Source: Peptococcaceae bacterium BRH_c4b
GTDB lineage: Bacteria; Bacillota; Desulfotomaculia; Desulfotomaculales; Desulfocucumaceae
Reading direction: 5' to 3'
DNA: 64,000 nucleotides
Assembly: GCA_000961595.1 (NCBI GenBank)
Contig: LADO01000050.1
Location: 1-64,000 of the forward strand
Shown: positions 5,966 through 13,460 of the stretch, piece after piece
How positions within the stretch are numbered: the stretch's first letter is position 1
Layout of the letters: each line of letters opens with the position of its first letter
Notes under the pieces: model-generated
Databases searched by the model: none
The model's input: only the letters and a program-made list of their open reading frames with translations
Told to the model about the DNA's origin: nothing
Made by a program: the position numbers and the translations under genes

Positions 5966-6193
5966 ATGCAAGGTGAAGAGAATTTTTATTGTGATAAGGT
6001 TAATAAGACTGTGAAGATTCAGTTTAATTTTAATAATATGGAGGGTGGAATCTACAGGACAGAAAGAGTCTTAAGTAACCAGGAGTTTAATTGTGAGAGG
6101 CTAGTATACCCGGAACACTGCATGTTGTGTAGCCCAATGACAAAATATGATATCTGGGAAAAATTAATAAAGCATTTTGTAGGTAAAAATTAA
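5966..6193 (+). CDS. Small hypothetical protein with a CxxC pair (75 aa)
   Basis: 75 residues starting MQGEENFYCDKVNKTVK. GGGAGTG stands 8 nt upstream of ATG, which supports a real gene. The protein has four cysteines: one near the N-terminus and three in the C-terminal half, the last two forming CMLC. This could be a small metal-binding or redox motif, but I recognise no family. A strong hairpin terminator follows about 80 bases later. Confidence 0.55.
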   Translation: MQGEENFYCDKVNKTVKIQFNFNNMEGGIYRTERVLSNQEFNCERLVYPEHCMLCSPMTKYDIWEKLIKHFVGKN

Positions 6194-6275
6194 TTAGGGA
6201 TACTATACAAAACAGCAGTTGCATTGGTCCTTGCGTGAGCAGGTTTTTTTTATGATAATTATACCCAGTGGATAC

Positions 6276-6309
6276 AAAAGGCCCGGCGCCTTCCGGCCCG
6301 GGCCTTTCT
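6276..6309. terminator. Bidirectional hairpin terminator
   Basis: AAAAGGCCCGG pairs with CCGGGCCTTT around a short CG-rich inner stem. It lies between the convergent 75-aa gene and the carrier gene and carries A/T tails on both sides, so it can serve both. Confidence 0.8.
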
Positions 6310-6325
6310 CACTCTTTTTATCTTT

Positions 6326-8320
6326 TTAAAGAATCACCGTATCAGTCCCATACTCTCCCAGTAAGGAATGGATATAGCGATGGCTATTAGTGATATGACA
6401 AAATGCAGAAATGCCAGGGGCAGGGTTTGCCTGTGCCGAAAAGCTCTTTCTTCCATTCCGTAATAGGCATTTAGGTAAACAGTGTCCTGGTGCGGTAAAA
6501 AACCACGGGTTTCCGGAAATCAGTATAACCAGTCCGATTATAAATGGGTTGATCCCCGTTGCGGAGGCTACCGGCACGATGGACAGCATGCTGATTAGCT
6601 GGGCAGGAGGCGATGGCAAGGCGAGGCGGAGCAGGTAGAAGGATATGGAGATTACCAGCAGGAAGACTAGCTTATTGCCTGAAAAAAATCCCAGGTAAGG
6701 GCTTACCTTGCCGGCTATAACGCCGGTCAGTCCGCTGGATGACATCACATTGCCGAAACCGATCAGGGCGCCGAAGGATATAAGAAAATTCCAGTCTATA
6801 TCCCGGCGCACTGCTCTTTCATCGAGCACCGAGCTGCCGAACAGGACCAGAAAGCTGAAAAGGGCAATCCAGGCGCCTTTTATATGGTGCCAGGGTTCGG
6901 TTACAAAGGCCAGAATGGAAAAGATTACGGTGATTAAAGATATTTTTTCCTGCAAAGTAATGGGGCCTAAGGTTTTTATCTGGGCTTCGATAATGTCATG
7001 GTTAAGGCTTGTTTTTATTCCCGGCCGGTATAGCATGATGATAGCGCAATAGGAGAGGGCAAAGAATATGATACCCATCGGCAAAGCGGTTTTTAGCCAA
7101 TAGACCCAGGTAATACCCGAGCTTATCTCTGCCGGCAGGAGACCGAAGACTAGAAGGTTAGCCGGCGTGCCGTTCATGAACATGAAGGACATGTGCCCGA
7201 AGCCCAGAAGGCAGGACATGGCGATGCCCACCGCTCCCGGGCTGAAATTCTTGAAATGAAGAGCCTCGGAAATATTCAGAGCCAGCGGGCTGGACAGTGC
7301 GACCCGGCCGTTGGCAGAGGGGATGATCGGTGTAAGAGCCAGTCCTGTCAGGGCCAGGGCCAGGGTCTGGCCGGTATAGCTCTGCGGAAAACGCCTTATT
7401 ATCAACAGTGCCATGCGAAAAAGAAGTCCCGTTCTGGAAATGGCTGCGGCGATGGCAAATACTCCTATGATGAGAAACCATGTGGGGCTTGAGAAGCCCG
7501 AGAATGCCTTGGCATCGGGTGCTGCTCCCAGGAGTACGGCCAGTAAAGGCAGGGCCACAGAAACCACGTGAAAGGATAGCAAATTCAGACTCCAGCAGAT
7601 GGTGGCGGCCAGTAATAATTCAATAATTATAACGTGGTTTTTTCCCAGTCCCGATGATTTTAGCAGCAGGGCTAAACCAAAACACAATAATGCTCCAGCA
7701 GCAATAATGGTAAAATTTCTATATAAGGCCTTTCTACTAATCGTTCCGGTTTTCAGGGTGGTGTCATATGGCACCGGAGGAAGTTCTTTAACAACATTTT
7801 CCCCTATATTCGAATACTGCGCCTTGCCGGAATCGTAATTTGTAGCCGCCAGTCTTCTCGCCAACAATTCATTAAAATGAATGGCCAGGGAATGGTGCTT
7901 TTTAATTATATCTTTGAAGCGCTCCTTGGATAGCTTAAAAACCGTTAAATCAGTAACTGCCTGAATACCTGCTGACCGTGGCTCGCCGGTTAGCAGGGCC
8001 ATTTCTCCGAAATATTCCCCGGGGCCCAGAAAGTTCAAATCTTTAACTTTTCCATTTTGTTCATAAAAGACCTTTGCTGTTCCATTTACTATTATAAAGA
8101 GGGAATCCCCGTCATCACCCTGATTGAATAATATTTCGCCGGAACTGAAGCTGTTCTTTTCTAATTCAGGTATTAGTTTTGCCATGTCGACTCTGCCCAG
8201 TCCGGAGAAAAGAGGAATATTGATGAGCAACAATTCGTCCAATAAAATCACCTTTTTCTGTTTCTGCAAATAGATACGCGTTTTTTCACCGTTTATACAA
8301 TCTTTGGGCAGTGCTTCCAT
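6326..8320 (-). CDS. Cyclic-nucleotide-binding domain fused to SLC13/DASS-type anion carrier, frameshifted near the C-terminus
   Basis: Residues about 28-165 form a cyclic-nucleotide-binding (CAP_ED) domain with GDDGDSLFIIVNG and PGEYFGEMALLTGEPRSA, the phosphate-binding cassette pattern. About ten membrane segments of the DASS/SLC13 (di-/tricarboxylate or sulfate:Na+ symporter) family follow, including PTWFLIIGVFAIAAAISRTG and TPIIPSANGRVALSSPLA. The carrier would sit in the cytoplasmic membrane with its sensor inside. After NPWF the frame goes wrong at a run of six T on the minus strand (6497-6502). With one T fewer, the protein continues NPWFLPHQDTVYLNAYYGME, gains a last membrane helix (LAFLHFVISLIAIAIS) and stops at 6334. 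This is either a real frameshift or a sequencing error. The start is uncertain: no good Shine-Dalgarno precedes ATG at 8320, whereas AAAGGTG stands before TTG at 8242, which begins MDELLLINIPLFSGL. The substrate cannot be told; nearness to sdhCAB makes C4-dicarboxylates worth testing. Confidence 0.85.
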   Translation of the reverse strand: MEALPKDCINGEKTRIYLQKQKKVILLDELLLINIPLFSGLGRVDMAKLIPELEKNSFSSGEILFNQGDDGDSLFIIVNGTAKVFYEQNGKVKDLNFLGPGEYFGEMALLTGEPRSAGIQAVTDLTVFKLSKERFKDIIKKHHSLAIHFNELLARRLAATNYDSGKAQYSNIGENVVKELPPVPYDTTLKTGTISRKALYRNFTIIAAGALLCFGLALLLKSSGLGKNHVIIIELLLAATICWSLNLLSFHVVSVALPLLAVLLGAAPDAKAFSGFSSPTWFLIIGVFAIAAAISRTGLLFRMALLIIRRFPQSYTGQTLALALTGLALTPIIPSANGRVALSSPLALNISEALHFKNFSPGAVGIAMSCLLGFGHMSFMFMNGTPANLLVFGLLPAEISSGITWVYWLKTALPMGIIFFALSYCAIIMLYRPGIKTSLNHDIIEAQIKTLGPITLQEKISLITVIFSILAFVTEPWHHIKGAWIALFSFLVLFGSSVLDERAVRRDIDWNFLISFGALIGFGNVMSSSGLTGVIAGKVSPYLGFFSGNKLVFLLVISISFYLLRLALPSPPAQLISMLSIVPVASATGINPFIIGLVILISGNPWFFTAPGHCLPKCLLRNGRKSFSAQANPAPGISAFCHITNSHRYIHSLLGEYGTDTVIL

Positions 8321-11172: not shown

Positions 11173-12054
11173 TTACAGGGATGAGGCAAGGCTGGTAAGT
11201 CTTTCTGCCATTTCCGCCACCTTCATTACGGAAGCCGCCACCTCTTTGGTAACCGAGGCCTGGGCAAGACTTTTGGTAACACTGTCTTCCGATGCTTTTA
11301 TTACTGTCCCCATTTTTTTGTCTATTTCACTGGTAAGCTTTTTTATCTCCTCGGCATTTTGCCTTGACTGCTCCGACAGTTTTCTTATTCTATCCGCCAC
11401 AATACGAAAACCTCTGCCATGTTCGCCGGACCTGACGGCCTCAATAGACGCATTAATTCCCAGCATGTTGGTTTGGTCTGCCACTTCCCTGATAAATTCG
11501 AGGGATTTTGATATTTCTCCGGAGATGGACTGTACCTGTTTGATGTTGTTGGCCAATAGTTTTTCGTTTACATCTATTTCTTCGGCGGATTTAGCTATGC
11601 CACTGATGGCCCCGGCGATCTCCCTGGCGCTGGCACTTAGTTTGCCGGCCATATCATTCAAATCGCTGCTCAGTCTTAAAGCCAGCTCGCGGTTCTGATT
11701 TCTTATTCTGGCAGAGAGGCCTTTCATTACCCTCCAGGCCAGTTCACTGTTAACACTCAATACCTGGTGGAAATCAGCCTGGTTCAGAGCCACCAGAGTA
11801 GTTGGTTTAATGGCTGTTGCCGTGCCGCTACGGGGCATTTCTTCCAGTAAGGACATGTCCCCAAAGAAATCACCGGTTTCAAATTTCGCCAGGATAATCC
11901 GTTTAATGCCCTGCTCAATACTTATCTCCACACAGCCCTCAATTACAATATACATTTCTTTGCCGGGTTCGCCCTCACGGAAAAGAATTTCGCCATTTTT
12001 CAGTTTCTTAGTTGTGCCGTGCATAGTTAATTCTTTAATGTCTATTACTGACAT
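11173..12054 (-). CDS. Soluble cNMP-binding domain / MCP signalling domain fusion
   Basis: 293 residues without membrane segments. Residues about 12-125 are a cyclic-nucleotide-binding domain: LKNGEILFREGEPGKEMYIV, then GDFFGDMSLLEEMPRSGTAT. A helical methyl-accepting chemotaxis signalling domain follows, with the conserved hairpin tip ADQTNMLGINASIEAVRSGE and GRGFRIVADRIRKLSEQS. Chemoreceptor tips usually read NLLALNAAIEAARAGE, so this is a diverged short version. It could be a cytoplasmic input to a CheA/CheW array, sensing a nucleotide; a cheW-like gene lies at 37893 in this window. The start ATG has GGAGAGG upstream. A long structured leader precedes it. It is the second cNMP-domain gene within 4 kb. 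Confidence 0.85.
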   Translation of the reverse strand: MSVIDIKELTMHGTTKKLKNGEILFREGEPGKEMYIVIEGCVEISIEQGIKRIILAKFETGDFFGDMSLLEEMPRSGTATAIKPTTLVALNQADFHQVLSVNSELAWRVMKGLSARIRNQNRELALRLSSDLNDMAGKLSASAREIAGAISGIAKSAEEIDVNEKLLANNIKQVQSISGEISKSLEFIREVADQTNMLGINASIEAVRSGEHGRGFRIVADRIRKLSEQSRQNAEEIKKLTSEIDKKMGTVIKASEDSVTKSLAQASVTKEVAASVMKVAEMAERLTSLASSL

Positions 12055-12467: not shown

Positions 12468-12734
12468 TTAAACCTCCTTTTCGTTGAAAGCGACTTTAAT
12501 CCAACCCTGAGTTAATTTCATCTGGGCGGTGCTTCCAGTAACTATAATATCCCCTGTTCTTATTCTTCTGCTGATTTGCATAATAGCATGGTCTGGGCTG
12601 AAGGCTGTAATTGTACCGATATATTTGTAATAAATGGGGTCTGGTTTCCTGGATAAAGAAAATTTCATACCATCTATTCTACTATTAACGCCATAAAGCT
12701 TATATCTCTCCAATAATCGGTCACCCCTGTTCAA
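12468..12734 (-). CDS. Small hypothetical protein downstream of the pseudo-receiver gene (88 aa)
   Basis: The frame begins at TTG 12734, overlapping the upstream stop (TTGA), which suggests translational coupling in the riboswitch-controlled transcript. The product is basic at the N-terminus. Its C-terminal half reads as beta strands: KYIGTITAFSPDHAIMQISR, then GDIIVTGSTAQMKL. A PilZ-like or small beta-barrel fold is conceivable, which would suit c-di-GMP signalling, but no RxxxR...DxSxxG motif is present, so I do not assign it. A later start at TTG within RLLERYK is possible. Confidence 0.55.
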   Translation of the reverse strand: MNRGDRLLERYKLYGVNSRIDGMKFSLSRKPDPIYYKYIGTITAFSPDHAIMQISRRIRTGDIIVTGSTAQMKLTQGWIKVAFNEKEV

Positions 12735-13234
12735 TTAGCCGCTTTCAAATGCCACCTGATTATGCCACCTTCAATATAGCCAGGATCGGCGGCCGGTTGT
12801 TCCGGAGCACCCGGTTTTGCGGAGGCGGGCGGTGCAAATTTGCCTTGCTGGTAGAGTAGGCCCTGTCTTATTTCCACTGGGCTGAGGATAAAATATTTAA
12901 ACAGTCTTTCCTGCTGCTGCCACGGCTTTAATAATATGTCGTCAATGCTGGCAATGAAGCCCGCCACCACGTCTGATTTGGAAATAGCATCGGAATAGGC
13001 AATTATTATACTGCGATTAATTTTTTTTAGTTTCTTTACCAGGTTGTATTTGTTATGACGGTCAAAAGAAAGGGCCATAAGTATGAGCTGGGGTTTTTGG
13101 TTGGCCGTTACAGCCACAGCTTTTAATTCATCGTCCGCTTCAAATACAGTATAGGTGTTTTTGCTGAACAGTAACTTAAGTATTTCCCTCATATATTTTG
13201 ATTTGTCTATGATCAAGGCGCTCTTGGTGGACAT
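12731..13234 (-). CDS. Pseudo-receiver (CheY-like) protein lacking the phospho-acceptor Asp
   Basis: From ATG 13234 (GGGGGG 6 nt upstream) the protein has 167 residues. Residues 5-115 follow the receiver fold: SALIIDKSKYMREILKLLF, an EADDEL helix region, KPQLILMALSF, a strand IIIAYSD and a DDILLKPW end. The position of the phosphorylated aspartate (after LILM) is Ala54, and the paired acidic residues of the first loop are reduced to ID10. The terminal lysine (K103-P) is kept. It therefore cannot be phosphorylated in the usual way and probably works through protein contacts. The tail (residues 116-167) is Pro/Ala-rich and likely unstructured. A longer frame to 13294 runs into the riboswitch and is rejected. 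Expression is under a c-di-GMP-I riboswitch. Confidence 0.8.
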   Translation of the reverse strand: MSTKSALIIDKSKYMREILKLLFSKNTYTVFEADDELKAVAVTANQKPQLILMALSFDRHNKYNLVKKLKKINRSIIIAYSDAISKSDVVAGFIASIDDILLKPWQQQERLFKYFILSPVEIRQGLLYQQGKFAPPASAKPGAPEQPAADPGYIEGGIIRWHLKAAN

Positions 13235-13240
13235 AAATAA

Positions 13241-13366
13241 CCCCCCTATTAAAAGCATAGAGGGCCGGTTGCGGGAACCCGTGATACGGGGCAACTGGCT
13301 GTCATAGGCGGTTTGCCGCCCTTAGACCCTCTAGCTTTGCGTCGCTTCCTTTCGGAAGTTTTGCTG
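13241..13366 (-). promoter_or_regulatory. c-di-GMP-I (GEMM) riboswitch
   Basis: On the minus strand, from about 13366 downward, the leader shows a hairpin ACTTCC-GAAA-GGAAG with the GNRA loop. Next come the invariant GCGACGCAAAGC and GGTCTAA, then a second hairpin GGCGG-CAAA-CCGCC and TATGACAGCCAGTTGCC. This is the layout of the GEMM aptamer that binds cyclic di-GMP between its two stems. Toward the gene, CCCTCTAT pairs with ATAGGGGG (13241-13264), which buries the Shine-Dalgarno. The likely mechanism is therefore control of translation by SD sequestration rather than termination. It governs the pseudo-receiver gene and the small gene coupled to it. Confidence 0.9.
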
Positions 13367-13460
13367 AAATATACTTTTCTATTATAATATTGGTAATTTA
13401 GTATCTATGTAAATAAGATAGCATTCTCTTATTAGTAGGACTACAGACTTATATTATAGA

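Follow-up and report, generated by a model that had tools for sequence, protein, structure and literature searches.

A GEMM-I riboswitch recurrently paired with a stand-alone receiver that lacks the phospho-acceptor aspartate, predicted to act as an OFF switch

Pseudo-receivers are common. The mechanisms that switch these bacterial proteins on and off have been described as a mystery (PMC12632262), and a locus of Peptococcaceae bacterium BRH_c4b raises the question of whether a second messenger may do so by setting the amount of the protein. The locus lies in positions 1 to 64,000 of contig LADO01000050.1 (‘the window’, meaning the whole stretch of DNA analysed), where a sequence-only reading had proposed a c-di-GMP riboswitch to control a receiver gene. 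We put at roughly two in three the probability that this GEMM-I riboswitch represses translation of a stand-alone, aspartate-less receiver when a cyclic dinucleotide binds, that is, acts as an OFF switch. From upstream to downstream, the locus comprises the following features.

13436..13448 (-): possible operator GTCTGTAGTCCTA, an imperfect match to the palindrome GGAC-N4-GTCCTAT
13384..13413 (-): sigma-70-like promoter TTTACA-18-TATTAT (consensus match only)
13287..13375 (-): GEMM-I (c-di-GMP-I, RF01051) aptamer (Rfam, model 1-87, 67.3 bits, E 5.2e-11)
13365 (-): A at the ligand-selectivity position (Vc2 G20; model position 11), from the Rfam alignment and comparison with sister aptamers
13327..13338 (-): predicted anti-sequestor 5' strand AAAGCUAGAGGG, within the aptamer (J2/3 and P3)
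13252..13264 (-): switch strand CCCUCUAUGCUUU, pairing with aptamer strand AAAGCUAGAGGG or with the ribosome site
13242..13264 (-): sequestor hairpin CCCTCTAT/ATAGGGGG (sequence and folding)
13241..13247 (-): ribosome-binding site AGGGGGG (sequence and folding)
12731..13234 (-): ORF1, a 167-aa stand-alone receiver without phospho-acceptor aspartate (ATG 13234, stop 12731)
12468..12713 (-): ORF2, a small protein, probably of 81 aa from TTG 12713 (88 aa if from TTG 12734)

ORF1 matches the Pfam receiver domain (Response_reg, PF00072; E 4.6e-13; 49.8 bits against a cut-off of 30.2) and has no output domain. Aligned with CheY and three canonical receivers encoded in genomes of the same family, and with residues assigned by eye, it carries Ala in place of D57, Lys in place of the second acidic residue and Ile in place of the K-3 coupling aromatic, while retaining the first acidic residue (D10) and the conserved Lys, with Ser at the T/S position. 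The profile match and the Ala at D57 agree with the earlier description of the riboswitch target as a receiver without phospho-acceptor; judged by its residues, ORF1 qualifies both as an aspartate-less receiver (as the term is used in PMC4395418) and as a pseudo-receiver (PMC12632262). A structure prediction from five orthologs was discarded (pLDDT 39.7).

A profile search (E ≤ 1e-20) returned 15 members of this aspartate-less receiver family, in 9 of the 113 genomes of the order, and none outside the order, in a sample of roughly 380 genomes of the phylum. Asp was kept at the phospho-acceptor position in no family member examined: within a twelve-member alignment this residue is Ala (the window and L014) or Ser (all others), and the more distant members in genomes G108, G056 and G036 likewise have Ser. 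Past the ribosome site of the G108 receiver gene (L149, ~1485-1500) there seems to be no ATG, GTG or TTG; ATT occupies the start position, either as an unusual start codon or through an error in the assembly. The window's own genome encodes a second family member (L028 5446-5910; G000:C40), which has no GEMM and is convergent with a GGDEF gene (5985-7301), and two further GEMM-less members (L015, L019) adjoin what appears by eye to be a LytTR-type response regulator gene.

The aptamer upstream of ORF1 is one of six GEMM-I copies in the whole genome. The sequence-only reading had called it nearly complete and suggested scoring it with the Rfam covariance model; the element is real and full length, and its score, against a gathering score of 35, is not poor. 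The window also contains a complete FMN riboswitch (RF00050; 41565-41697 (+); 109.9 bits). The promoter-like TTTACA-18-TATTAT ends at 13384, and the aptamer starts 9 nt further on. An alternative promoter inside the leader, which had been named as a finding that would speak against riboswitch control, was not detected between the aptamer and the ORF1 start, in a scan whose sites are no more numerous in the real than in shuffled sequence.

Further upstream, at least six of the nine loci at which a GEMM-I precedes a receiver gene (L024, L025 and L026 among those named) carry the palindrome GGAC-N4-GTCCTAT, at a distance of 23-65 nt from the aptamer. The palindrome also precedes a few other GEMM-I copies of the family (L052, L122, L130, L131), and a related pattern, GTCYNNNGTCCYA, was confined to receiver loci among the 186 loci examined. 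The palindrome is possibly an operator for some regulator; this evidence is suggestive only, because these very sequences supplied the consensus.

Directly upstream of 9 of the 15 family members, in four GTDB families, we found a GEMM-I aptamer. Receivers with this arrangement occur in the same genus (the window, G003, two in G001, G006 and G004) and in three other families (G108, G056, G036). Two orthologs from one genus (G006, G007) are preceded by GEMM-like sequence that looks decayed by eye and has no Rfam match, and no GEMM was found at the remaining four members. The arrangement, whose presence in related genomes had been proposed as a check, recurs at nine loci in the order, and to call the pairing ‘unusual’, as the sequence-only reading did, was an understatement.

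The nine receiver-linked aptamers share a mean identity of 77% among themselves versus 55% to the other GEMM-I copies of their own genomes, which argues that riboswitch and receiver were inherited as a unit. The five nearest relatives of each of these aptamers all belong to the same nine. This clustering, together with the recurrence at receiver genes, identifies the pairing as a module and not as an accident of the window. The exact core pattern CTAGAGGGTCTAA...CAGCCAG occurs nine times in the 113 genomes, eight times at receivers and once in G112. At the G112 occurrence (L185, G112:C36), the aptamer subgroup stands ahead of a terminator and a flgB-like gene, which hints at a link of this riboswitch lineage to motility. 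Of the roughly 39 GEMM-I matches in the GTDB family to which the window belongs, about 6 precede receivers of this kind. In G004, a receiver-like ORF that follows another GEMM was rejected, as it turned out to be a broken fragment of a receiver beside a CheR-like ORF. No conserved neighbour gene was evident by eye among the unannotated ORFs around six GEMM-receiver loci. Downstream of the receiver locus, at 11173-12054 (-), the window encodes a cyclic-nucleotide-binding domain and a methyl-accepting chemotaxis signalling domain in one protein.

What, then, could the riboswitch do to the receiver gene? The downstream hairpin that had been said to bury the ribosome site is present: CCCTCTATGCTTTTAATAGGGGG, at 13264-13242 (-), forms 8 pairs over AGGGGGG (-11.5 kcal/mol folded alone). 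The 5' arm of this hairpin is also complementary to the aptamer. In the window, the resulting anti-sequestor duplex reaches -21.5 kcal/mol versus -12.3 (sd 2.35) for shuffles, and was equalled by 5 of 2000 shuffles (1 of 1000 in a repeat); taken singly, the other eight leaders show no clear gain over shuffles, of which 87-458 per 1000 equal the real duplex. One strand with two mutually exclusive partners, aptamer or ribosome site, is thus clear in the window and formable in all nine leaders, though individually non-significant in eight. Most sister leaders have GACCCUCC or GGCCCUCC in the place of the switch strand, and two have GGCCUUUC; these strands are complementary to GAGGGUC in the aptamer as well as to GGAGG. 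A 7-bp core of the anti-sequestor can form in 98.4% of cells across the nine leaders versus 30-65% when slid by 1-3 columns, a conservation to be read with the aptamer strand's being constrained for the aptamer's own reasons; compensatory double changes in the anti-sequestor were not seen across the nine.

With the aptamer pairs forced in folding, the core of the window's ribosome site is 1-2% unpaired, and the mean unpaired probability of the site is 0.00-0.14 in nine of nine leaders. Without ligand, the window's site is also partly paired (mean 25% unpaired). From these parts (aptamer, hairpin and complementarity), together with the loss of the Asp and the conservation of the pair, we infer how ligand, switching, direction and function of the module may fit together. 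In the ligand-free state, CCCUCUAUGCUUU would pair with AAAGCUAGAGGG in the aptamer, occupying the adenosine run of the ligand pocket, and the ribosome site would stay available. Ligand binding would lock the aptamer, the freed CCCUCUAUGCUUU strand would pair with AGGGGGG, and translation of ORF1 would drop, such that high messenger levels would entail little pseudo-receiver and low levels much of it. As the usual phospho-acceptor Asp is missing, its amount would be the receiver's only regulated variable, and the protein may act through binding a partner.

The direction of switching was absent from the sequence-only reading. Since the forced aptamer shuts the ribosome site, the ligand should turn translation OFF, and the folding evidence points that way. 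The converse, namely that the ligand turns expression ON as it does for the C. difficile c-di-GMP riboswitch ahead of cmrRST, has on its side the direction of the sole precedent in which an aspartate-less receiver stands under a c-di-GMP riboswitch (PMC12548384). It also fits the unconstrained fold, which already favours the closed hairpin in most sister leaders; in all, five or six of the nine behave so, and the free state of these may not be open. Yet aptamer formation frees the switch strand to shut the ribosome site in every leader, and we found no alternative pairing that opens this site while the aptamer is intact, so that we regard an ON switch as very unlikely.

The same leader might instead be an OFF switch by premature transcription termination, with the ribosome-site hairpin and a U-rich stretch forming a terminator that the ligand promotes. 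The window's hairpin is listed as terminator-like in our scan; CUUUUUUU, AUUUUUU and CUUUUU follow the hairpin in G006, G001 (second copy) and G004, respectively; and past the closely similar G112 aptamer lie a clear terminator and flgB. In the window, however, the tail GUUAUUUAUG has short U runs only and the start codon lies 6 nt past the ribosome site, G036 and G056 are also devoid of a U tract, and in nine of nine leaders the ribosome site itself makes up the hairpin's 3' arm. We therefore judge termination unlikely as the mechanism, although it may contribute, given the U tract past the hairpin in several sisters.

The riboswitch could also be a decayed remnant and the receiver expressed constitutively. 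The G006 and G007 orthologs with their decayed GEMM-like remnants indicate that the element can be lost, and the window copy has an unusual A20. Against this stand the completeness of the window's aptamer, its score of almost twice the cut-off, and an intact switch strand that pairs with the aptamer better than in any sister; decay thus appears very improbable, and translational repression remains our preferred reading.

Which ligand would the preferred OFF switch respond to? At model position 11 of the aptamer (alignment column 16) the window has A, where each of the eight receiver-linked sister aptamers has G. The equivalent in Vc2 is G20, the base preceding helix P2, and in the cGAMP riboswitch it is A14 (PMC6274999). 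In Geobacter, A versus G at the equivalent position accounts for cGAMP versus c-di-GMP selectivity, and an A-to-G change converts a switch for cGAMP into one for c-di-GMP (PMC6456294); the position is a selectivity factor rather than an absolute filter (PMC9262584). Thus, the window's aptamer lacks the G20 expected for c-di-GMP selectivity and has the A expected of a GEMM-Ib cGAMP riboswitch. Because this A is a hallmark of 3',3'-cGAMP (GEMM-Ib) switches, the ligand is uncertain. Of the earlier proposal that c-di-GMP controls, through a riboswitch, how much of a non-phosphorylatable signalling protein is made, the GEMM-I class, the sequestration of the ribosome site and the aspartate-less target hold, whereas c-di-GMP as the ligand is not secured in view of the A at 13365 (PMC6456294, PMC9262584).

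It follows that the window's riboswitch might sense 3',3'-cGAMP or be promiscuous rather than a c-di-GMP sensor, which would fit either control mechanism. Besides the base itself, the rarity of the A variant speaks for this: reading the matches, we judged roughly a dozen in the order to be convincing, versus several hundred GEMM-I copies. On the other hand, the Hypr signature (GHxxGS, with Ser for the Asp of GHxxGD) was found in none of the readable GGDEF proteins of the window's genome (13 of 13 have Asp; two fragments were unreadable; of the possible cGAMP sources, Hypr enzymes or CD-NTases, the search covered the former), all eight sisters have G, the position is no absolute filter (PMC9262584), and the A could be a sequencing error. 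We hence consider cGAMP sensing or promiscuity improbable. We still regard c-di-GMP as the likeliest ligand, but ‘cyclic dinucleotide’ is the safer wording. Quite doubtful, too, is the more specific proposal that the window copy changed its ligand: that one G-to-A substitution made a lineage-specific GEMM-I switch of a non-phosphorylatable receiver sense 3',3'-cGAMP, alone or with dual specificity, in a bacterium where no Hypr cyclase can be recognised. Were it true, c-di-GMP sensing would have to be relaxed, or cGAMP would have to come from a source that has escaped recognition. With its A20, the window copy is a natural variant against which ligand selectivity can be compared.

The 88-aa protein downstream had been named as a second riboswitch target. 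Read from TTG 12734, its frame has a 4-nt overlap with the ORF1 stop, whereas TTG 12713 lies about 8 nt past AGGGGTG and coincides with the point at which homology to a protein of G003 sets in (35% identity across 88 aligned positions; E 9e-16 when the two sequences are compared alone); ORF2 therefore probably starts at the latter codon. This G003 homolog, the only one found, sits between sdhB and the riboswitch, i.e. upstream of the latter. ORF2 is thus no conserved riboswitch target; the earlier claim lacks support, and we dropped the protein as an established target. Further searching returned no related locus, no NCBIfam family and nothing convincing in the PDB.

With the known GEMM-I riboswitches (RF01051; Vc2, Cd1), the window's element shares a complete aptamer with P2, P3 and the conserved core, and control of a signalling gene; it differs by the A at the G20 position and by belonging to a sequence subgroup bound to one gene family. 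Cd1 is likewise an OFF switch (PMC9262584), as predicted for the window, but uses a terminator where the window would sequester the ribosome site. The Geobacter GEMM-Ib 3',3'-cGAMP riboswitches have the same A at the G20-equivalent position and are induced by cGAMP (PMC6456294), unlike the predicted OFF switch of the window, whose sequence otherwise groups with the G20 sister aptamers and whose genome yielded no Hypr cyclase signature.

In C. difficile cmrRST, a c-di-GMP riboswitch also sets the level of a receiver without phospho-acceptor, CmrT (PMC12548384). CmrT, however, binds DNA as a regulator of the OmpR type and has Glu at the site, and its operon, which a positively acting switch controls, also encodes a kinase, whereas here a receiver alone, with Ala or Ser, follows a GEMM-I predicted to be OFF. 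Like other aspartate-less receivers and pseudo-receivers, ORF1 is a receiver by profile that has lost the Asp and the second acidic residue (PMC4395418, PMC12632262); unlike them, its family is stand-alone, riboswitch-linked and, in the genomes searched, confined to one order. GEMM-I OFF switches such as Cd1 and aspartate-less receivers were both already known, and cmrRST is a precedent for joining a riboswitch to such a receiver. A limited search of the open-access literature found no description of a conserved unit of GEMM-I and a stand-alone, output-less receiver, and it is this module, not its components, that is new to us.

The module would tie c-di-GMP signalling to a receiver fold outside histidine-kinase control, and it is a conserved example, open to testing, of what looks like second-messenger control of a pseudo-receiver through its amount.
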